Shown here in pieces: positions 2,663 through 35,848 of a stretch of 36,673 bases of DNA (within the stretch, counting starts at the first letter, position 1; each line of letters opens with the position of its first letter). The position numbers were made by a program, and so were the translations under genes. The stretch is from the NCBI GenBank assembly GCA_903934135.1, contig CAIZMQ010000175.1:1-36673 (forward strand). The letters are read 5' to 3'. Source of the stretch: an uncultured Verrucomicrobiota bacterium (GTDB taxonomy: Bacteria > Verrucomicrobiota > Verrucomicrobiia > Chthoniobacterales > JACTMZ01). The notes beneath the pieces are model-generated. The model made no database searches. It saw nothing but the letters and a program-made list of their open reading frames with translations, and had not been told where the DNA came from.

Positions 2663-5404
2663 TCACCCGCCGCCCGGCCGCGGCAGGTAGGCTTGGAGTT
2701 GCGGAAGGAGTTTTTTCACGATGGAGCCATCTTTGGTGATCAACGAATGGACACGGCCGCTGAGACGTCCGCGGTCTTCTTCGGTCAGGTCTTTCGCCGT
2801 GACGACGATCACCGGGGTGTGGACGTAGCGCGGATCGCGGCGGAAGTGGTCGAGGAATTCAAAGCCGTCCATCCGCGGCATCATGAGATCGAGGAGGACG
2901 AGCGAGGGTTCGGTCTCGCGCACGGCCTCGAGCCCTGCCACACCGTCGCCGGCGAGGAGAACTTTCCAACCCTGCTTGACCATGGTGCGTTGGAGCTGGT
3001 CGCGCGAAGCTTCGTCGTCTTCCACGATGAGCACGGTGCGGGCTTGCGCGCCGAGATCGAGACGTTCGAGGGTGCCGCGCAACCGCGTCCAATCAACCGG
3101 CTTGGCCAGGTAATCGAAGACCCCAAGGGCGACGCCCATTTCGCGGCTGTCGGTGATGGTGACGAGAATGATCGGGATGTGCGCGGTGGCGGGGTCGGCT
3201 TTGAGCGCGTTGATGACCGACCAGCCGTCCATGCCGGGCATCATCACATCGGTCGTGATGGCCACGGGATGTTTCGTCTTGGCCAACTCGAGGCCGTCGC
3301 GGCCGTTGCTCGCGGTGTGCACGTCGAAACCTTCCTTGGTCAGGAAACGGCTCATCAGGTCGAGCACGGTCGGATCGTCGTCGATCACCACGACGGAGGG
3401 ACGTCCGGATGTTCCGGTCGTGCCGGCTGGCGCGGCCGCGGCGGGTACAGCCGGCACTTCCTCCTGCGGTGCCGAGGCCGGCAAGGCGACGGTGAAGGTC
3501 GAGCCCTCCCCCGGCACGCTTTCGACGGTGATATCGCCCCCAAGCAGCCGGCAAAAATCGCGACTGATGGCGAGGCCGAGCCCAGTGCCGCCGAATTTGC
3601 GCGTGGTCGAGGCGTCAGCTTGGCTGAAGGCTTGGAAGAGGCGCCCTATCTGCTCCGGCGTCATGCCGATGCCGCTGTCGCTCACCGCGAAGCGCAGCCA
3701 GTCGGCGCCGTTTTCCACGCTGCGCGTGACGACGAGACGGAGTTTTCCTTTCTCGGTGAACTTGCTCGCGTTGCTCAGGAGGTTGAAAAGCATCTGGCGG
3801 ATTTTGGTCAGATCGCTCTGCATCGTGCCGGAGTCAGCAGGGAGTTCGACCTCGAGGTGGTTGTCGTTCTTCTTGACCAGCGGGAGCACAGTCGATTCCA
3901 CCTCGCGCACCATGGTGGCCACGTCGATCGTCTCGCAATACACGGTCATTTTGCCGGCCTCGATTTTCGAAAGGTCGAGCACATCGTTGATCAGCCCGAG
4001 GAGGTGCTTGCCGGCGCTGTGGATTTTGTTCAAGTCGGGGATGAATTCCTCCTGCCCGAGGTCCTGCATCTCCTCGGTGAGCATTTCGCTGTAGCCGATA
4101 ATGGCGTTCATCGGGGTGCGCAATTCGTGGCTCATATTGGCCAAGAAAGCGCTCTTCGTGCGGTTCGCTTCCTCGGCCTGGTCCCGGGCCTCGGCCAACT
4201 CCTCGGTGCGCACGCGCACTTTTTCGTCCATCGTCTCGATCATCTCGCGCAACTGGCCGGTCATATGGTTGAAGTCGCGGGCCAGATCGCCGATTTCATT
4301 GCTGCTGCGCACCTCGGCGCGGCGGTGCAGGTTACCCGAGGCGACCTCGTGCGCGGCGGCGGTCAGTTCCTCGATAGGACGGGAGAACGAGCGCGCCACC
4401 AACCAGGCGGCCAGCGCGGCGAGAAGGCCGCTGACCAGCGCGATGCCGGCGGACAATTTGCGCAGGAGCGAGACCGGAGCGAAGGCTTCGTCGTCGTCGA
4501 CCTTCACCACCACGCCCCAGCGCAGCGCGGGCAGGTATTGCCAGACGGCGAGCACGGATTTCCCGCGGTAATCGGTATCGGGCCCGAAGCCGGGCAGGCC
4601 CTTCATGCTGGCGCGCAGTGCGGCGGAAGGTCCCTCGGCCGGCACGCGCAGACGGAAGGCCGCCTCCGGGTCATGCCGTGTCGGGGCAACAGCCATGAGC
4701 CCGTCGGCGTGTTCGGCCACCACTACCATCTCGCCGGTCGCACCAAGGCCGGAGGTGTCGCTGATCACGCGGTTGATCTCCGCCGCGCCGATCTGCAACA
4801 CGGCCAGCCCGCGATACTTCCCGCCGGCCAGCACGGGCGCGGCAATGAACGTGGCGGGCAAGGCGTCGGGTCCGTAGAAATCGAAATCCGATTGCTCGAG
4901 CCCCAGGGTGAAGCGGGCGGACTGCGCGGTGCGGCCCAGCGTGGTGCCGGCCACGGGAGACGCGTCGATCTTCACGCCGAAATCAGGACCGTGCGCGGTG
5001 GAAAAAACAATCCGGCCATCCGGATCGATGAGGTAGATGTCGTCGGTGCCGATCGATTCCGCGGCGCGGCGCAGGAACGGCGCGAAGCGCGCGGCGGCGG
5101 CAGCGTGGAGGTTTTCGTCGAACGCACCATTCTTCCAGGCGGCGGAAAATGCGCCGATGGCCTCGGCCGTGCCCGGGTTCACCGCGAGGACGAGCAAGTC
5201 GCGTTCCTGCCCGCGCAGGAACGCTTCGACCTGCCGGCCGAGATTGTTGGCCATGGCCCGGAGGTTGTTTTCGATCTGGTCAGTGAGAAGTTGCCGGGCG
5301 GTGCGGGTGGTGAGAAACGCGGCGGCGATGAGCGGCAGCAGAGTGAGGAGCAAAAACCAGACGAGCAGTTGCCTGGCGATGCGGGAGCGGCGGGACCTTT
5401 TCAT
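2663..5404 (-). CDS. Hybrid sensor histidine kinase (dCache-HAMP-HisKA-HATPase-REC-REC)
   Basis: The predicted 913-residue inner-membrane sensor kinase has TM1 at about 13-31, a periplasmic Cache-like domain of about 285 residues, TM2 at about 317-336, HAMP (about 337-388) and a coiled coil. HisKA follows with phospho-acceptor His426 in [16 protein letters not shown], then an ATPase domain with N-box [15 protein letters not shown] (576-580) and GGTGLGLAI. Two receivers complete it: REC1 with Asp719 ([11 protein letters not shown]) and Lys768 (AKP), and REC2 with Asp839 ([11 protein letters not shown]). No DNA-binding output domain or Hpt domain is present, so the signal probably leaves through an unlinked Hpt or response regulator. 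The ATG at 5404 overlaps the stop codon of the upstream binding lipoprotein (ATGA), implying translational coupling and joint sensing. An in-frame reading upstream to 5848 lies inside that gene and lacks family features. Confidence 0.93.
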
Positions 5405-6675
5405 GGCACGGGCGCGTCCTCTTCGCGCGGGCTGACCCATTTCCCACCCCAGGAAGCGGAGAGATCTTTCTGCCAGCTCTCCCAGTCGGCGCGGGTGCGG
5501 AAGAGCGGGAAGGGCATGGGGCGCACCGGTTTGTCCGAGGACCACACGATGTCGAACTGCCCGTCGGGGCGGATGCGGCCGAGGCGCGCGTATTTCCAGG
5601 CGTGGTGCGTGGGGCCGTCGATGTAAGCGAGGCCGCCCGGCGCGCGCATCCCCTGCCCGCCGATTTTGGCCAGCACGGCGGCGGGTTCGGCGGAGCCGGC
5701 GGCGCGCACGGCCTGCGCCCAGAGTATAACGCCGAAGTAGGCCGCCTCGAGCGGATCGGAGACGACACGATCCGCGCCGAAACGCGCGCGGAATTTTTCC
5801 AGAAAGGCCCGGTTCTCCGGCGTCTCGACGCTCTGGAAATAGTTCCACGCGGCGTAGTTCCCCGCCATGGCTTCAGCGCCGAGTTCGGGTAATTCGGTTT
5901 CGCTGATGCTGAACGAAATGACGGGCAGGCGGTCCGGCGTGAAGCCCGCCTCACGGAGGGCACCGAAGAAGGCGACATTCGAATCGCCGTTGATCGTGTT
6001 GAGAATGACCTCGGGTTTGGCCTCGACGATGGCCTCGATCATCGGGGCGACATTTTTCCCGCCGAGCGGGAGATACAATTCGCCGACCACCTCGCCGCCC
6101 AACGCGGCGACCTGGTCGCGGATAATCTCGTTGGCCGTGCGCGGGAAAACGTAATCCGACCCGACAAGGAAAACGCGTGGACCGAAGTTGGCCAAGGCGT
6201 AGCTCACCGCCGGCATGACCTGCTGGTTCGGCGTGGCGCCGGTGTAGACGATGTTGGGCGATTGCTCGAGACCCTCGTATTGCACCGGATAGAAAAGCAG
6301 GTGGTGGTGTTTTTCGAAAACCGGACCGACCGCTTTGCGGCTCGAAGAGGTCCAACACCCGAAGACCACGCTGACCCTCTCCTCCGTGATCAGCCGCTCG
6401 GCCTCGGCCGCAAAGTTGCCGGAGTCGGACTTGCCGTCGGCAATGACCGGTTCAAGCCGCCGCCCGAGGAGTCCGCCTTGGGTATTGATCTCCTCAATGG
6501 CCAGCAGGGTGGCATCGACCACCGGCCGCGCGCTGATCGCCAGGGTTCCGGTCATGGAATGCAAAATACCCACGCGGATCGGCGCCTCATCGGGCCGCGA
6601 ACAGGAGGACAACATCGCAGCGACAACCACGCACGGGAGCAGGCGCAGAATAGATGACTTGGTCAGGCGAAACAT
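5401..6675 (-). CDS. Urea/amide-type substrate-binding lipoprotein (UrtA/AmiC-like)
   Basis: The predicted 424-residue lipoprotein has a signal with lipobox LSSC (Cys25). The mature part is a class I periplasmic-binding fold typical of UrtA, FmdD and AmiC proteins: [14 protein letters not shown] near the start, [35 protein letters not shown], and [15 protein letters not shown]. UrtA-type proteins bind urea or short amides. No urtBCDE permease or ATPase genes follow; instead the stop overlaps the start of a hybrid histidine kinase by four bases. I infer that the protein delivers ligand occupancy to the kinase rather than to a transporter. The start at 6675 gives a compact lipoprotein signal; 6708 would add 11 residues. 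The exact ligand is not determined by the sequence. Confidence 0.88.
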
Positions 6676-6838
6676 CGGAGGACGGGAGCGGTAAAGGGGT
6701 TGTGTCAAACTGCCAGCCAGCGGCGCCGATAGCGAGACGGTTTACGAGGAGATTACGCCTTCGGCGCGGGAAGACACCACCGCGCGCTGTACAATCAGCA
6801 CCCCCGCAAATGCAACGTGACAGTGCGGGGAACCCCCG

Positions 6839-7855
6839 TCACTCGCCGCGCGGACGGCGCGGCGGAGGCGGGCCATCCGGGCCTTCGCGGTGGTGGAATG
6901 TTTCTTTTCGCCCGTCGGGAAATTCGAAGGCCACCGTCCCATCGGCATTCACCGTGTAGACAATTTTCTGCGCGGTTCCGCCCACCTCATAGGTGAGTTC
7001 GCTCCGGTTGGCATGGGTCACGAAATCCGTAATGCGCGCGCCGCGCAAGGGTTGCAAGGCGGGACGGACCGGTCGGGCCCGCGGTTGCGGATCGACCCGC
7101 CCCTCGCGCTCGGTCACCTCGCCATGGAATCCGCCGATGACGTAGGGATATTTTTCCGACGCGTGGTAGTGGTAACCGAGCGCGGGGGTAGAATGGCCAC
7201 CGATCGCATCGAGGCCCAATGGCGCGGAGCCGTCCGGTTCTTTCAGCCCGTAGATCGGATAGCCGTCCAAAGCGTAGGCAACAGGTTTGTCGCGGCCAAT
7301 GGTCTCCTGCAGGTGCAGCGGCGCGATGTGGTAATGGTAATCGTCCGCGCGGCCGCAATGCCCTCCCCATTGGTCGAGTTCACCGATCTCGTAGGACAGT
7401 TCGCCGCGGTTGTTTTGCGGGTTGAAGATCGGCACGCCGTTGGCCGCGAGGGCGATGGCTCCGCGCAGGAAATGATTTTCCACGGAGATGGGTGTCGCGG
7501 CCGGAACGGGAGCGAGCGGAATCTGCCACGCGTTGGCTCCGGTGTAATCCTGCGGAAGCGGCACCTGTTGCTGCCACGCCGTAATACCGGTCATCATGCC
7601 GTGGTCCGGCAAACCATGACTCTCGACGAAAAGAAATTGATCGTCCCAGCGCACTTTGACCGCCGGCGCGAAACAAGCAAAAGCAGCCGCTTGCGGCGGC
7701 GCGTTGGTCGCGCTCAGCAATCCTTCGACTCGCGCGCCGCCCGCAGCGAACGCCGCGGGATCGTGGGCCGGTGCCGCGCACAATGCGGCCGCAAGAAAAA
7801 CGACAACAATCCAAAGCGTTTTCGATGCGGAGTTTAGTGCGGGGTTGTTTTTCAT
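6839..7855 (-). CDS. Exported YHYH-domain protein
   Basis: The predicted 338-residue exported protein has a hydrophobic signal segment at about residues 14-30. Two YHYH motifs are visible, at residues 173-176 (GRADDYHYHI) and 228-231 (GYHYHASEKYPYV), with DGYPIYG between them; this is the YHYH family. The C-terminus is Pro/Arg-rich and hydrophilic. The clustered Tyr and His residues suggest metal binding, but the biochemical role is unknown. The ATG overlaps the stop of the sulfatase-PEBP gene by four bases, so it is the last gene of a three-gene sulfatase unit. YHYH proteins are often found near PEBP and sulfatase genes in Planctomycetes and Verrucomicrobia (general knowledge, not checked here). 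Confidence 0.85.
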   Translation of the reverse strand: MKNNPALNSASKTLWIVVVFLAAALCAAPAHDPAAFAAGGARVEGLLSATNAPPQAAAFACFAPAVKVRWDDQFLFVESHGLPDHGMMTGITAWQQQVPLPQDYTGANAWQIPLAPVPAATPISVENHFLRGAIALAANGVPIFNPQNNRGELSYEIGELDQWGGHCGRADDYHYHIAPLHLQETIGRDKPVAYALDGYPIYGLKEPDGSAPLGLDAIGGHSTPALGYHYHASEKYPYVIGGFHGEVTEREGRVDPQPRARPVRPALQPLRGARITDFVTHANRSELTYEVGGTAQKIVYTVNADGTVAFEFPDGRKETFHHREGPDGPPPPRRPRGE

Positions 7856-9711
7856 GGTGCGCTGGTTGGTCTGTCGTAGGTGACGCTCAGCGAAGCGCGC
7901 TCGAGAATTTTGTCCTTCATTGCGTCGAGCAGGATTTCGCGCGTCACTTCGGAGGTGGGTTGTTTGATCTCGAGCATCCCGGACAAGGCGTAGACCGTGA
8001 GGACATAGGTTTTCACACCGGGTCCTTTGGAGTGCGGCGGTTCGTATCCCTCGCGTCCGCGGAAACCCACCCCCACAAGGCCGGGCGGTTTGCCGTTCTT
8101 TTCCAGATGCGTCACGTCGGCCGGAATATCCCAGATATTCCAGTAACTTTTCGCCATGTCGGGAGCTTGGTGATCCATGATCAAGGCGAAGCTTTTCGTG
8201 CCAGCCGGCGCGCCTTCCCAAACAAGGGGCGGTGACACTCCCGCTCCGTCGCCGGTGTATTCGGCAGGCAACTCGCCGCCGCTGACAAAGGCGGAACTGC
8301 TCAAAACGAATCCTTTGGAGGGGTCCGGAGCCGCAGCGGATCCCTTCGGCGACTCGTCACGACGTGCCTTGCCGCCGCCGCGTGCGGAAGCAGTCGGATC
8401 GTAAGCTGGATTGGGCGAGGACGGACATGGTGCGGCAAGCGACTTTTGCCACGCGTGCAGTTTGTCGCTCAGTTCCTTGGCACGCGCCGGCTCCGACTTC
8501 ACAAGGTCGCGCGATTCGCCCGGATCGCGCGCGAGGTTATACAACTCGGTTTTGCCGGTTTCAAAGAACTCGAGCAGCTTCCAGTCGCCGGAGCGTATCG
8601 CGCTGCAGGGAGCGGTCGGACCCGAGTAAACGGGGAAGTGCCAGAACAAATCACGCGTGATGCTCTTTTGCTTTCCGTCGAGCAAAGGCACAAAGCTCAT
8701 TCCGTCCAAGGGTGATCCAGCATCGGCCTTGACTCCGGCCCACTGGAGAACCGTCGGATAGAAATCCATACTGAGAATCGGTGTGTCGAACTTTTGTCCG
8801 GCGGCGATATCCAGCCCGCTGACAATGGCTGGAACACGCAGGCCGCCCTGATAGAGCGTTCCCTTGCCACCGCGCAGCGGCGTGACGGTTTGCCGCACAC
8901 CCCCATTGTCCGAGGTGAAGATCACATAAGTGCGATCCGACAAACCGAGTTTCTCCAAACCGGCGAGCAAACGTCCAACGTTCGCATCCATCGCCTCGAC
9001 GGTGGCCGCGAGTTCCGGATCGGCGACACCCGGGCGTTGGCGGTATTTTTCCAGTAACTCGGGCTTCGGATCGAACGGCCCGTGGACATCGTGAAAAGCG
9101 AGATAGAGTAAGAATGGACGATCCTCTTCGCGCTTGATCCAATCCAACGCCGCATCGGTCAGCGCGTCGGAAGAATACAACCCGTTGTCGCGGTGGTAAG
9201 CATCCTTGGCGAAACCGAGATCCGTGGGCTCAACGAAAAGATCGAATCCTTGGCCGGTGGGTGAGGCCGGGCCGTTCCGGCCGCGTCCGAGATTCCACAT
9301 ACCGAACAACGCCGAGGTGTAACCCGCGGGTCGCAAGGCCTCGGCAAGTGTGATGGTTCCTTCGGTCAAATCAGCGCGCGTTTCGGTCGCGAGGATCTTG
9401 TGATGCGGCCTGCCGGGCGCGTGCCGCGGATCGACCACATTGTAGACTCCATGCCGCGGCGTGTATTGGCCGGTGAGAAGAGAGGCTCTCGTCGGCGCGC
9501 AGGTCGGCGCGCTGGCGCAGGCTTGAGTGAACACCGCACCGCTCTTCGCGAGAGCGTCAAGGTGCGGCGTATCCACATTCGTGCTCCCGCAAAAACGCGC
9601 GTCGTTCCATCCCATGTCGTCGGCGAGAATGATGACGAAGTTCGGATGTTCAACGGGAGCGGACCAAGAGGCGCGCACACAAAGAAAACAAAGCGCGAAG
9701 CACAGGCGCAC
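7852..9711 (-). CDS. Secreted sulfatase fused to a C-terminal PEBP (YbhB/YbcL-like) domain
   Basis: The predicted protein of 619 residues has a short signal sequence, then an alkaline-phosphatase-fold sulfatase domain (about 22-445): NFVIILADDMGWND for metal binding, C71-A-P-T-R75 as formylglycine motif followed by ASLLTGQYTPRHGVY, and FTSDNGG. After a polar linker an independent domain (about 466-615) reads as PEBP: PAEYTGDGAGVSPPLVW, MDHQAPDM, YWNIWDIPAD and KTYVLTVYAL. PEBP domains bind phospholipid head groups or phosphate-like anions. Fusion to a sulfatase suggests substrate or envelope targeting, but that is inference. The GTG at 9711 starts right before the hydrophobic signal core and lies 31 nt past the upstream stop; an ATG at 9792 would overlap the upstream gene by 50 nt and give a long basic N-terminus. 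The start is therefore uncertain. Confidence 0.9.
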   Translation of the reverse strand: MRLCFALCFLCVRASWSAPVEHPNFVIILADDMGWNDARFCGSTNVDTPHLDALAKSGAVFTQACASAPTCAPTRASLLTGQYTPRHGVYNVVDPRHAPGRPHHKILATETRADLTEGTITLAEALRPAGYTSALFGMWNLGRGRNGPASPTGQGFDLFVEPTDLGFAKDAYHRDNGLYSSDALTDAALDWIKREEDRPFLLYLAFHDVHGPFDPKPELLEKYRQRPGVADPELAATVEAMDANVGRLLAGLEKLGLSDRTYVIFTSDNGGVRQTVTPLRGGKGTLYQGGLRVPAIVSGLDIAAGQKFDTPILSMDFYPTVLQWAGVKADAGSPLDGMSFVPLLDGKQKSITRDLFWHFPVYSGPTAPCSAIRSGDWKLLEFFETGKTELYNLARDPGESRDLVKSEPARAKELSDKLHAWQKSLAAPCPSSPNPAYDPTASARGGGKARRDESPKGSAAAPDPSKGFVLSSSAFVSGGELPAEYTGDGAGVSPPLVWEGAPAGTKSFALIMDHQAPDMAKSYWNIWDIPADVTHLEKNGKPPGLVGVGFRGREGYEPPHSKGPGVKTYVLTVYALSGMLEIKQPTSEVTREILLDAMKDKILERASLSVTYDRPTSAP

Positions 9712-9742
9712 CTTGGCCGACGGCCGACAAATACAGCTTCGC

Positions 9743-11125
9743 CTATTCACCGGCAGCGGACGGTTGGGGCGGAGCGAGCGGATCCGCGGCATTCGTCGGA
9801 CCTTGCTTTTTCTTTCGCCCCCCTGAACCCCCTTGGCTGCGCCCGCCTTGGCCGCCGCCCTTCGCGCGCCATGAGCCGAGGTTCGCTTTCAAATCCGCAG
9901 TCATCCGGGCGACACGATCCGCGCTGGCCGCAGCCATATCCCGGCTTTCGTTCGGATCGTCTTCGAGGTTGTAAAGTTCCGCCGGCCCATCGGGCGACAC
10001 GATTAATTTCCACGGCGGCTCGAACCATGCCATGCTTTTGCTGCCGACGGCGAAGGAAGCGCGATTCGTCGAGCCATCCGCGGCGACCAAAGCGGGCCAA
10101 ATGTTGATACCGTCGAACGGCTTCGCCGGTTGCGGTGTGATGCCGGCTGCCGCGGCAAGGGTCGGCCAGACGTCACCGGCCCACATCCATCCGGAAAATT
10201 CGCCGCCCGCGCGGATCGCGTCCGGATAACGCAGCGCCGCCGCAGAACGCACTCCACCCTCGTAGGCTCCGCCCTTGGCTCCGCGCAAAGCCCCGTTGCT
10301 TCCGCCGCGGCCGTCCTGCGCGCCGTTGTCGCAGAAAAAAAGCACGATGGTCGAATCGGCAATCTTTTGCTCGTCCAAAGCATCGAGCACCCGGCCAATC
10401 GCGCTGTCCATCCGCTCGACCACCGCGGCGTAGGCGCCGCCACCGCGTCCCGGCACACCCTCGGGCGGTTGCAAAGGACCATGTGCCGCGTTGAAGGCAA
10501 GGTGCAGGAGGAACGGATTGTTCGGATCGCGCTTTTTGATCAGGCCGATCGCTTCGTCGGCGAACAAGTCGGTGGAATAACCTTTTTCCGAGACGGGTTG
10601 CCCGTTGCGCCACCAGTCCGGTTGACCGCTAGCCGGATTCACATGGGCGAAATAATCCACCGCGCCGGCGAGAAATCCGTAGAAATGGTCAAAACCGCGC
10701 GCATCGGGATGGTATTCGCGGCCGGCGAACGTGTTGTCATCGGATCCGCCGAGATGCCATTTGCCGCACATCCAAGTCTGGTATCCGGCGGCGCGAAAAT
10801 CGTCCGGAAAGATCCGGTAATCCAGCGGCAACCCCGAGCGGTTGTTCACGCCGGTGCGAGGTGCGAATTGACCGGTGAGGAACGAGGCGCGTGTCAGGCT
10901 GCAGATCGGGTTGACGTAAAAGCGCTCGAGCCGCACACCACCGGCGGCCAACCGGTCGAGATGGGGCGTCCTGATGGACGAACCATGGAATCCGACGTCA
11001 CCCCAACCCACATCGTCGGCCACGATGGTGATGATGTTCGGGCGAGGCGTGGTCGCCCTTTCGGCCGCCGATGCGAACAAACAAAAAAACATCGAGGCAA
11101 AGACAGCTTTCAGGACGCTCCGCAT
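9743..11125 (-). CDS. Secreted sulfatase with variant CSLTR active-site motif
   Basis: The predicted 460-residue exported protein (signal about 1-20) has PNIITIVADDVGWGDVGFHG metal ligands, KWHLGG, HLAFNAAHGPLQPP and FFCDNGAQDGRGGSNG, all typical of arylsulfatase-type enzymes. The activation motif is C75-S-L-T-R79 followed by ASFLTGQFAPRTGV. The usual consensus for formylglycine-generating enzyme is C-x-P/A-x-R, so Leu77 is a departure. The last 50 or so residues are a low-complexity Gly/Gln/Lys/Pro-rich tail after the family-typical ELYNLEDDPNESRD. It is the first gene of a unit with the sulfatase-PEBP and YHYH genes. The substrate is unknown; sulfated polysaccharides are the usual targets in this type of bacterium. 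The fold is certain, activity less so because of the motif change. Confidence 0.92.
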   Translation of the reverse strand: MRSVLKAVFASMFFCLFASAAERATTPRPNIITIVADDVGWGDVGFHGSSIRTPHLDRLAAGGVRLERFYVNPICSLTRASFLTGQFAPRTGVNNRSGLPLDYRIFPDDFRAAGYQTWMCGKWHLGGSDDNTFAGREYHPDARGFDHFYGFLAGAVDYFAHVNPASGQPDWWRNGQPVSEKGYSTDLFADEAIGLIKKRDPNNPFLLHLAFNAAHGPLQPPEGVPGRGGGAYAAVVERMDSAIGRVLDALDEQKIADSTIVLFFCDNGAQDGRGGSNGALRGAKGGAYEGGVRSAAALRYPDAIRAGGEFSGWMWAGDVWPTLAAAAGITPQPAKPFDGINIWPALVAADGSTNRASFAVGSKSMAWFEPPWKLIVSPDGPAELYNLEDDPNESRDMAAASADRVARMTADLKANLGSWRAKGGGQGGRSQGGSGGRKKKQGPTNAADPLAPPQPSAAGE

Positions 11126-11211: not shown

Positions 11212-12291
11212 TCAGCCAATCTCAGCGAACACCGCACCCCCCAGAAGGCGCGCGCCTTCGTAGAGGGCGCAGATTTGGCCGGGCGCGAGGGCGCGCTGCG
11301 GTGAGGCAAAGACGATTTCCCCCGTGCCGTCGTCGCGGCGGGCGAATTCGATAGGGACGCGCGGGGCGCGGTAACGCGGGCGCGCTTCGATGCGGGCTTT
11401 GGCCGGAAGTTCGGGACCGGCGGCGCTCAAGTTCGTGAGGATAGCGCGGCTCGCATAAAGACCCTCGGTGTCAGGACGATCGTAGCCGATGACGAGTTCG
11501 TTGGCCGGCATGCGTTTGTCCACCACCACATAGGCCGTCTCCGGTTCGGCCGAGGCCACGCGGATGCCGCGGCGCTGTCCGAGGGTGTAATTATGCAAGC
11601 CTAGGTGCTCGCCGAGGATGCGTCCGGCCAGATCGACGATCGGACCGGGATTTTCCGGAAGATATTCCTTCAAAAAATCCTGCATGCGCACTTTGCCGAT
11701 GAAGCAGATGCCCTGGCTGTCTTTTTTTCCCGCGGTAACCAACCCGGCCGCCTCCGCCTTGGCCCGCACTTCGATTTTGTGCCGTTCGCCGACCGGAAAC
11801 CACGCGCGCGCGATCTGCTCCGGACGCAGCATGGCAAGGAAGTAGGATTGGTCTTTCCCCGGGTCGGCGCCCTCGAAAATGCCGGGCTGGCCCGTTGGCC
11901 CCAAAGCGATGCGCGCATAATGCCCCGTGCCAATACCGTCGAATCCTTCCCGCAAAGCAAGATCGAGAAAGACGCCGAACTTTATCTCGCGGTTGCAATA
12001 GACATCCGGGTTCGGTGTCACCCCCTCGGCGTAACCCTTGAGCAAATAATCCACCACGCGCTCGCGGTAATCTTCGATGAGGTTGACTACGCGAAACGGG
12101 ATGCCGAGCTTTTCCGCTACGGCGCGCGCGTCGGCCACGTCCCGCTCCCACGGGCACTGGCCGAGCGGATCCCACTCGGCCATCCAATTCTTCATGTAGG
12201 CGCCTTCAATCTGGTGACCCTGCTCTTGGAGGAGCAACGCAGCGACGGAGCTGTCCACTCCGCCGGACATCGCGACGAGGATCCGGGCCAT
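11212..12291 (-). CDS. mnmA: tRNA-specific 2-thiouridylase MnmA
   Basis: This cytoplasmic enzyme of 359 residues, the usual family length, makes 2-thiouridine at the wobble position of tRNA-Lys, -Glu and -Gln. The N-terminus carries the PP-loop ATP-pyrophosphatase signature (VAMSGGVDSSVAALLL). The two conserved cysteines sit in NPDVYCNREIKFG and in GKKDSQGICFIGK, which is the persulfide-carrying site, and HNYTLGQRRGI matches the tRNA-binding part. The ATG at 12291 is preferred over a TTG two codons upstream. It begins 6 nt after the stop of the BtpA-family gene and probably shares its transcript. Nothing unusual is seen. Confidence 0.97.
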   Translation of the reverse strand: MARILVAMSGGVDSSVAALLLQEQGHQIEGAYMKNWMAEWDPLGQCPWERDVADARAVAEKLGIPFRVVNLIEDYRERVVDYLLKGYAEGVTPNPDVYCNREIKFGVFLDLALREGFDGIGTGHYARIALGPTGQPGIFEGADPGKDQSYFLAMLRPEQIARAWFPVGERHKIEVRAKAEAAGLVTAGKKDSQGICFIGKVRMQDFLKEYLPENPGPIVDLAGRILGEHLGLHNYTLGQRRGIRVASAEPETAYVVVDKRMPANELVIGYDRPDTEGLYASRAILTNLSAAGPELPAKARIEARPRYRAPRVPIEFARRDDGTGEIVFASPQRALAPGQICALYEGARLLGGAVFAEIG

Positions 12292-12297
12292 GACCAA

Positions 12298-33395: not shown

Positions 33396-34991
33396 CTAAG
33401 GCGAAAGGTGGCTACCGCGCAACCGTTTCGCCTCGCCTCCGCCGAGAGAGGTGCTGATCTGCAGGGCCAATTTGAGGCCGATACCCGGTACGGCGGCGAT
33501 GTCCCCGACCGGAACCCGGCGCAACCGCTCGACCGAACCGAAGGCGCGCAACAGCGCCTGCTTGCGCGTTTTGTTCACCCCTTCGACATCGTCCAGACGG
33601 CTCTCCGATACCCGGCGCTTCATCAGCAGTTGGTGGTAGCCGTTGGCCACCCGGTGCGCCTCGTCCCGGATGCGCTGCAGCAACTTCAGCCCCCCGCTCT
33701 CGTGCGGCAAGCGCAGGGGCTGCGGGTCATTCGGGAAAAAAATTTCCTCCCGCTCCTTGGCCAGTCCGATCACCGGCTGACCGCGCAGCCCGAGCCGGCG
33801 CAACTCCCCGACTGCGCTGGACAATTGGCCGCGACCACCATCGACCACCACGAGATCCGGAATACGGTCCACCGCGGGCATGGTTAGCCGCGCCACCGCC
33901 TCACCCGCCTCCTCCTGGCTGAACTCGGCGGCCTCGGGATGCGCCTCGCGCGCCGCGGCGAGCAGCCGCGCATAACGCCGGCGCACCACCTCGGCCATGC
34001 TCGCGAAGTCGTCCTGCCCCTCCACCGTCCTGATCCGGTAGCGGCGGTAGCTGCTGCGGTCCGGGACACCGTCCTTGAAGCGGACCATCGAAGCCACCAC
34101 GTGCGTGTTGGTGATGTTGGAAATGTCGAAGCACTCCATGAGAGAAGGCGGGCGCGGCAACCCGAGGGCCTCCCCGAGTTCGTTCAGGTCGGCTTCCGGA
34201 TTGACCGCGCGCGGCAAAGCATCGCCACGCAGAAATCGCCGCGACTTCGCCGCGGTGCGCCGCAGCGCGGTCACGAGATCACGCAGTGCCGCTGCCTTCT
34301 CGAAATCCTGGCGGGCGGCCGCCGCCTGCATCTCCTGTTCCAACTCTTCAGGCACATCTTTGCTCCGGCCCTCGAGAAATTTGCAGGCCTCGAGAACGCG
34401 TGCCCGGTAATCCGCCTCGCTGATTTTTCCAACGCAAGGTGCGGAGCAATTTTTGATGATGTCATCGTGGCAGTGACGGTAGTCTTTTTCCGTCGGCACC
34501 CGCGGCCGGCAGGAACGCAGCCCGTATTTGCGCTTGAGGATCTCAAGGGTGGCGCGGAGAGCTCCCGAGTGCGCGTAGGGTCCGTAATAGCGGGCGCCAT
34601 CATTTTTCTTCAGCCGTACGAGGGAGAACTTTGGGAACGGATCGTCGAGGTTGACTTTGATCTGGAGAAAATTTTTGTCGTCGCGAAAAGAAATATTGTA
34701 TTTCGGCCGGTATTCCTTGATCAGCCGACCCTCGAGCAACACCGCCTCGGCGTCGGAGCGGACCACGTGCAGGGTGAAATCCCACACCGAGTCGAGCAGT
34801 GCGCGCGTCTTGAGGTCGGCCATCCGCGAGCGCGCCGGAGTGAAATAGTTGGCCAGCCGCTTGCGCAGGTCGCGTGCCTTGCCCACATAGATGACCCGGC
34901 TGAGCCGGTCCCGCATGAGGTAAACCCCGGGCTTGTGCGGCACCTCGTGCAAGCGGGCGCGGAGGTCGGGCTTGTCGCCGGCAGCAGGCAT
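33396..34991 (-). CDS. uvrC: Excinuclease ABC subunit C
   Basis: The predicted 531-residue nucleotide-excision-repair nuclease makes both incisions around a lesion with UvrB. The N-terminal GIY-YIG domain shows KPGVYLMRD and RVIYVGKARDLRKRLANYF. Next come a Cys-containing segment (CHDDIIKNCSAPCVGKIS), the UvrB-binding UVR helix pair (AAARQDFEKAAALRDLV), the RNase H-like domain (LMECFDISNITNTHVVASMV and DLVVVDGGRGQL) and a helix-hairpin-helix tail (VEGVNKTRKQALLRAFGSVE). It is shorter than the roughly 600 residues of E. coli UvrC but has all domains. ATG 34991 is chosen; the frame remains open far upstream over the divergent gene without homology. Confidence 0.97.
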   Translation of the reverse strand: MPAAGDKPDLRARLHEVPHKPGVYLMRDRLSRVIYVGKARDLRKRLANYFTPARSRMADLKTRALLDSVWDFTLHVVRSDAEAVLLEGRLIKEYRPKYNISFRDDKNFLQIKVNLDDPFPKFSLVRLKKNDGARYYGPYAHSGALRATLEILKRKYGLRSCRPRVPTEKDYRHCHDDIIKNCSAPCVGKISEADYRARVLEACKFLEGRSKDVPEELEQEMQAAAARQDFEKAAALRDLVTALRRTAAKSRRFLRGDALPRAVNPEADLNELGEALGLPRPPSLMECFDISNITNTHVVASMVRFKDGVPDRSSYRRYRIRTVEGQDDFASMAEVVRRRYARLLAAAREAHPEAAEFSQEEAGEAVARLTMPAVDRIPDLVVVDGGRGQLSSAVGELRRLGLRGQPVIGLAKEREEIFFPNDPQPLRLPHESGGLKLLQRIRDEAHRVANGYHQLLMKRRVSESRLDDVEGVNKTRKQALLRAFGSVERLRRVPVGDIAAVPGIGLKLALQISTSLGGGEAKRLRGSHLSP

Positions 34992-35066
34992 AGGCCGGCA
35001 ATTATAGCGCCTCCGGCCGCCCCCGCCATCCTTGCATCGGACGAACAGACCGCTAACCTTCGAGTC

Positions 35067-35789
35067 GTGAGATTGCTCCCGGCCGCTTTTGTCACCTTGC
35101 TTACCGCCGCAAGCGCCCGCGCGCAGGAGGCTTTGCCGCCCGTCCGCGCAGAGATCAATTTGTGGCAGGTCATGCTCTCCGGCGGCCCCGTTATGATCCC
35201 TCTGGGCATCCTCTCGGTCATCGCCGTGATGCTCATTCTGGTCTACCTTTTCACCATGCGGCGGGGCGCGGTGGTGACCAAACGCTACATGGCGACGGCC
35301 GATGCCCTCCTGCGCAAACGGGACTACCTCGGTCTTCTGGCCATTTCCAACCGCCATCGCGAAGCCGTGGCTCGCGTCATGCAACGCACGCTGGACTTCG
35401 TCACCCAACACCCGGAAGCCACCTTTGCCGACGCCCGGGAAATCGCCGAAACCGAAGGAACCCGCCAAGCCGCCGCCCTCAATCAGCGTATCACTTACCT
35501 CGCCGATATCGGCACCATCGCCCCAATGCTCGGCCTCTTTGGGACGGTGCTCGGCATGATCAAATCCTTCAGCGTGGTGGCCAGCGACATCGTGGCCTCG
35601 CGGCCCATCATGCTGGCCGAGGGCGTCTCGGAGGCCCTGGTGACCACAGCCACGGGCCTGGTCATCGGCATCCCGGCCATGGCCGCTTATTCTTTTTTCC
35701 GCGGACGCACCCAGTCGCTCATCGCGGAACTGGAGGCCGCTTCGACCCAGTTGATGGCCCTCATGTCGGTGGCTTTCACCCGGAAATAA
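35067..35789 (+). CDS. MotA/TolQ/ExbB proton-channel family protein
   Basis: The predicted 240-residue protein starts with GTG at 35067 and a signal-like segment (about 1-20, ending ARAQ). Three membrane helices follow: about 34-55 (VMIPLGILSVIAVMLILVYL), about 149-170 (IGTIAPMLGLFGTVLGMIKS) and about 185-210 (GVSEALVTTATGLVIGIPAM). The last two are the core of ExbB/TolQ, where they line the proton path. A cytoplasmic domain of about 85 residues lies after the first helix. ExbB-type proteins energise TonB or Tol with ExbD/TolR; no ExbD gene follows here, only a lipoprotein gene. The GTG choice fits the signal segment; the open frame upstream overlaps uvrC antisense. Confidence 0.9.
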   Translation: MRLLPAAFVTLLTAASARAQEALPPVRAEINLWQVMLSGGPVMIPLGILSVIAVMLILVYLFTMRRGAVVTKRYMATADALLRKRDYLGLLAISNRHREAVARVMQRTLDFVTQHPEATFADAREIAETEGTRQAAALNQRITYLADIGTIAPMLGLFGTVLGMIKSFSVVASDIVASRPIMLAEGVSEALVTTATGLVIGIPAMAAYSFFRGRTQSLIAELEAASTQLMALMSVAFTRK

Positions 35790-35848
35790 ACGGCACGCCC
35801 CGGTCATTTTTTGGTGCCATCCGGCCCGGTCGGCGCTATGTCTGTCCT

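Follow-up and report, generated by a model that had tools for sequence, protein, structure and literature searches.

The analysis of the window (the whole stretch of 36,673 nucleotides from an uncultured Verrucomicrobiota bacterium) has highlighted three overlapping genes, for which we lean towards the reading of a translationally coupled operon encoding an exported ester-hydrolase unit, in which a PEBP domain, acting as a portable binding module, has moved to a hydrolase of a clade marked by the motif GMWN. The unit was found to recur in relatives, where PEBP forms part of the YHYH protein and where, in some lineages, secreted phosphoesterases replace the sulfatases; hence it looks like a real and undescribed ester-hydrolysing system. 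The families themselves are known; the combination of the trio, the GMWN clade and the PEBP move were not found in the literature, in a search of limited coverage which returned no paper linking YHYH proteins with sulfatases and none on PEBP together with sulfatases and Verrucomicrobia.

Organization of the locus

All three genes lie on the minus strand and their domains were confirmed, with every Pfam match above its cut-off. The first gene (9743..11125) encodes an S1-family sulfatase of 460 aa (PF00884, 161 bits; hereafter S1), the second (7852..9750, or to 9792) a sulfatase-PEBP fusion (PF00884, 192 bits, with SGSH_C and PF01161) and the third (6839..7855) a YHYH protein of 338 aa (PF14240, 51.5 bits against a cut-off of 25). 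The trio of two sulfatase-type genes and a YHYH gene described in the first-pass annotation is present, and the export assigned there is predicted from the N-termini of the three proteins, which are all signal-peptide-like as judged by eye. Both junctions of the trio overlap. The fusion stop and the YHYH start share the ATGA at 7852..7855 (minus strand), exactly as had been claimed, and the likeliest start of the fusion, GTG at 9750, overlaps the S1 stop within GTGAATAG. An ATG at 9792 is also in frame; GTG is preferred; the homologue in G005, a genome of the same genus, starts likewise, its S1/fusion junction overlapping with ATGAGTAG.

Neighbours of the trio are a gene for tRNA modification (11212-12297) on one side and one for a Peripla_BP_5 protein (5401-6708) on the other. 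A promoter and terminator scan at the trio gave no signal above shuffled sequence, and the window holds no sugar-degradation or regulatory genes near it; the loci of relatives, unlike the window, carry anti-sigma-like, cytochrome (PSCyt/PSD) and other genes. The source genome assembly (2.3 Mb, 182 contigs) has eight sulfatase matches and encodes a formylglycine-generating enzyme (FGE) with the Cys pair, in GGSFLCHPAYC. Elsewhere in the window, a dCache hybrid histidine kinase with two receiver domains comes after a periplasmic binding protein of urea/amide type (Peripla_BP_5), the two (2663-6708) possibly forming a ligand-sensing pair. A UvrC-like protein (33396-35807) has its GIY-YIG domain from residue 293, so that either its N-terminus is much extended or its start was placed too far upstream.

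Active sites of the two sulfatase-type proteins

The sulfatase part of the fusion (8383..9657, minus strand), called FS here together with its clade in relatives, was found to be nearest in sequence (316 bits) and in fold to the S1_16 sulfatases (AMOR_S1_16A, PDB 9FO1; 6UST), the closest solved structure being the kappa-carrageenan sulfatase 9FO1. It had been described as a full sulfatase on account of its CAPTR motif (9487..9501, minus strand), and this holds for the formylglycine site and for the other catalytic and Ca residues but not for the pair Lys and His of GKWH. In an alignment of 21 FS sequences, in which a few loci are represented more than once, CxPxR, Asp13, Asp14, His211, Asp317, Asn318 and Lys375 (Pseudomonas numbering) are retained in 21/21; nine catalytic or Ca positions are unchanged, among them the Asp-Asp...Asp-Asn ligands of S1 formylglycine sulfatases. 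On the other hand, GKWHLG has become GMWNLG (9286..9303, minus strand), in which Lys113 is Met and His115 is Asn throughout the clade (GMWNLGRGR in 21/21), so that FS is not catalytically canonical. Lys113 is retained in all 125 other sulfatases of the alignment set and is conserved in 94% of 4058 S1 sequences, and His115 is the residue to which the desulfation step has been assigned (PMC5066984). FS scored above threshold in only 3/213 genomes of the order (five candidates scored per genome).

In comparison to the S1_16 enzymes, FS keeps CxPxR, the Ca ligands DD...DN and the equivalents of His201 and Lys287, but the hallmarks Trp79, His125 and His149 (9FO1 numbering) are replaced by Val, Asn and Phe (PMC11760155). 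Further differences are the Met in place of the catalytic Lys and, in the window, the PEBP domain at the C-terminus. At the Lys and His positions of GKWH, phosphonate monoester hydrolases likewise depart from arylsulfatases, RlPMH having Tyr105 and Thr107 (PMC5488252). FS resembles these enzymes (RlPMH, S1_0) in having neither Lys nor His at the two positions, although the residues are different (Met/Asn against Tyr, Asp/Thr), and their fourth metal ligand is His (PMC5488252) whereas FS has Asn in 21/21. FS is S1_16-like overall, and its best matches are S1_16 sulfatases and not phosphonate monoester hydrolases.

CSLTR is found at the formylglycine site of S1 (10889..10903, minus strand) instead of CxPxR, with Leu where Pro or Ala is usual, and it is the same in G005 and in L014, a locus from another relative. 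Residues other than Pro/Ala each account for <1% at that motif position in the survey of 4058 S1 sequences (PMC5066984), and FGE may act poorly on CSLTR. S1 keeps GKWH (as GKWHLGG), and its nearest solved relative is human N-acetylgalactosamine-4-sulfatase (1fsu). As CSLTR is maybe poor for FGE and FS is without two catalytic residues, neither enzyme is a certain working sulfatase.

Origin of the sulfatase-PEBP fusion

A search for sulfatase-PEBP fusions and their YHYH neighbours has shown that G005 carries S1, the fusion and the YHYH gene in the order of the window, its fusion being 78% identical over residues 27-645. Both fusions are intact, at an identity of 74-78%, and the fusion is present in 2/11 genomes of the genus. 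Assembly error is ruled out as its source, since it recurs in G005. In G009, of the same genus, the YHYH gene is intact and directly 5' of it lies what is left of a PEBP domain, interrupted by an in-frame stop and a shift of frame; no sulfatase adjoins the YHYH gene. The order of PEBP before YHYH is therefore common to three genomes, and the YHYH gene can be kept alone, as G009 has it with no hydrolase and a broken PEBP.

Elsewhere the arrangement is different. In twelve relatives (L010-L019, L072, L073; eleven Verrucomicrobiota and one planctomycete, from genome contigs) the sulfatase is its own gene beside a single YHYH-PEBP protein, and PEBP is C-terminal to YHYH in the other FS-clade members with an adjacent YHYH-PEBP. 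The window's YHYH protein stops where its relatives pass into linker and PEBP, and the window's PEBP follows the FS C-terminus. In the FS tree the window pair (support 100/100) has as its sister L014 (93/90), where S1, FS and YHYH-PEBP follow in the window's order. Because this sister has PEBP on the YHYH protein, the fused state in the window is derived, and these sequences are most simply explained by a move of PEBP inside the operon in this genus. The first-pass annotation had named, as evidence against its own reading, that PEBP might normally be a separate gene and the fusion a local accident or assembly error. Half of this is borne out, as PEBP is normally found elsewhere, on the YHYH protein; the other half is not, the fusion being neither an assembly error nor an accident of one genome.

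Seven of the twelve YHYH-PEBP relatives were seen to carry a further C-terminal domain of ~200 aa, with no Pfam match where tested (none in L018). This domain (ADNWFMLYVNG...EYPMTIAVLAKDNADPKTGLEYG) forms the C-terminal end of the YHYH-PEBP protein or a separate gene (L018:12600-13149, L151:5533-6696, L157:1983-2675, L019:3995-4729).

Structure and partners of the PEBP domain

The PEBP domain of the fusion (7876..8274, minus strand; residues 507-639), which in relatives forms the C-terminus of the YHYH protein, matches PF01161 (PBP) at 69.7 bits against a cut-off of 24. The AF2 model of the fusion has a mean pLDDT of 74.7 and a pTM of 0.62, with most of the PEBP domain above 90 and the linker from sulfatase to PEBP (8317..8412, minus strand) below 50. 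It was built on a smaller alignment; a deep joint alignment misplaced pieces of PEBP onto the sulfatase. The predicted fold is thus a sulfatase and a well-folded PEBP domain joined by a linker predicted to be disordered, and since the linker is disordered the model gives no evidence for a cleft shared by the two domains, for which the first-pass annotation had suggested looking.

The domain is similar to the YbhB/YbcL-type PEBP proteins, with PF01161 above cut-off and 3n08, 1fjj and 1vi3 matched by sequence. The window's subfamily differs from them in a characteristic PPHSKGPG segment, in a TIGR00481 score below cut-off and in the pocket. When the domain is aligned to 3n08, Tyr and Lys stand in place of the canonical anion-pocket histidines (residues 86 and 118 of human PEBP1). 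Due to this replacement, the earlier suggestion that PEBP binds an anionic head group is not supported.

PEBP domains of the same subfamily were found on several other partners. They are fused to FGE-like (PF03781) proteins in L192-L195 and to LTXXQ proteins in L196 and L198, and they occur as a gene of their own, in L199 at 38 bp downstream of a sulfatase and in L197 next to an LTXXQ gene. Partner changes are hence recurrent, and PEBP is most likely a portable binding domain. An LTXXQ family gene also follows FS in L009. The FGE-like fusions were considered as maturases and rejected for L192 and L195, the two of L192-L195 in which the FGE Cys motif was read; the Cys pair is absent (RGGNWYNGENGH, RGGNWFNGENGH), so these were not counted as FGEs.

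The YHYH protein and its genomic association

The YHYH protein shares its profile and a conserved His/Asp set with the PF14240 proteins, including phage tail YHYH domains. Both of its YHYH motifs, the first at 7328..7339 within GHCGRADDYHYH and the second at 7163..7174 (minus strand), are invariant in 13 sequences. The AF2 model with 13 homologues reached a pLDDT of only 45, a solved structural relative was not found, and further homologues in viral contigs were not confirmed. The His/Asp set has been predicted elsewhere as the Zn site of a metal-dependent hydrolase (PMC7824862), and the YHYH protein is read here as a putative metal protein and hydrolase. The window-type subfamily is distinguished from other PF14240 proteins by its link to the C-terminal region and PEBP and by adjoining sulfatases or phosphoesterases.

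YHYH genes were gathered across the phylum without reference to sulfatases, which gave 18 usable loci of this subfamily. A same-strand sulfatase lies within 2 kb of the YHYH gene in 13/18 loci against 0.86 expected from upper-bound sulfatase counts per genome (P ~3e-15, a value which overstates independence since the 18 loci are related by descent). More distant YHYH proteins (n=4, ~57 bits) have no sulfatase within 2 kb. The trio is therefore a real and recurrent association. Among the five loci without a sulfatase, three (L144, L148, L156; in G552, G199 and G501) have two secreted calcineurin-like metallophosphoesterases adjoining the YHYH gene, and six YHYH loci have both a sulfatase and metallophosphoesterases. 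This metallophosphoesterase family is small, with 12/17 genes in 19 genomes lying within ~6 kb of a YHYH gene, as counted from coordinates on the same loci where the pattern was noticed. In L159 (10811-15457), a protein of 1549 aa directly after the YHYH gene combines a sulfatase, an Ig-like domain and a metallophosphoesterase.

Possible functions of the unit

The unit can also be read as an ordinary sulfatase cluster which only desulfates a polysaccharide (a carrageenan-like or mucin-like galactan), with GMWN as a tuning of an S1_16-like sulfatase and with PEBP and YHYH as passive binding domains. The kappa-carrageenan sulfatase is indeed the best match of FS in sequence and fold, a second sulfatase with canonical CSPTR adjoins most FS relatives, and the anti-sigma-like and PSCyt/PSD genes near relatives fit such a cluster. 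However, the S1_16 hallmarks at Trp79, His125 and His149 are missing (PMC11760155), the Lys and His of GKWH are absent from every FS member, and three loci have phosphoesterases instead of sulfatases; on these grounds we consider this reading unlikely. The loss of the desulfation residue and of the highly conserved Lys (PMC5066984), and the presence of another sulfatase next to FS in most loci examined, would also suit a pseudo-sulfatase, a partner of sulfatase fold with no turnover of its own, serving to bind substrate or to regulate the active sulfatase next to it. A decaying site would hardly have kept CxPxR, its Arg, the four Ca ligands, His211 and Lys375 in 100% of the 21 sequences, and phosphonate monoester hydrolases without the same Lys and His are active (PMC5488252), so that we hold this explanation to be similarly unlikely.

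The fusion itself may be functionally meaningless, a neutral accident of local gene rearrangement. Its occurrence in only two genomes of the genus, the broken PEBP piece in G009 and the position of PEBP on the YHYH protein elsewhere speak for it, but both copies have stayed intact while diverging to 74-78% identity, and the same module has changed partners repeatedly (YHYH, FGE-like and LTXXQ proteins, or alone after a sulfatase), which makes an accident quite improbable. A bolder proposal sees here an undescribed secreted system, present in Verrucomicrobiota and in at least one planctomycete. In it, YHYH-PEBP works with ester hydrolases that can replace one another (sulfatases, formylglycine enzymes of the GMWN clade or paired calcineurin-like phosphoesterases), and the GMWN clade is a new type of formylglycine enzyme, with hydrolysis of a phosphate- or phosphonate-type ester and not of a sulfate ester as its main activity. 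We regard this as doubtful, a little more so than the ordinary cluster.

We return to the preferred reading, in which the unit is most likely a module of secreted hydrolases for anionic esters, PEBP being its portable binding domain. The operon would comprise the S1 sulfatase, the GMWN-clade hydrolase of formylglycine type and the YHYH protein with its conserved His/Asp metal-type site. A rearrangement inside the operon would have transferred the PEBP domain, which normally ends the YHYH protein, to the C-terminal end of the GMWN hydrolase. Outside the cytoplasm, the proteins would all work on a single anionic substrate, from which the hydrolases may remove sulfate (and/or phosphate-type) esters, while the YHYH protein could bind or cut the backbone with a metal. 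PEBP would hold the hydrolase and the YHYH protein on the substrate or link them with one another, possibly in a physical complex. The first-pass annotation had proposed a sulfated or phospho-lipid-like substrate; the phosphate-type part of this idea has gained some indirect support from the phosphoesterases that replace sulfatases in relatives, but nothing points to lipids.

A domain which changes partner inside one operon is 'Rosetta stone' evidence that the sulfatase, PEBP and YHYH act together. In the GMWN clade, formylglycine enzymes are set apart by two invariant substitutions at the very positions where sulfatases and phosphonate hydrolases differ. Further, the enigmatic YHYH family is placed by this unit in an enzymatic context that recurs, and its function thus becomes testable.
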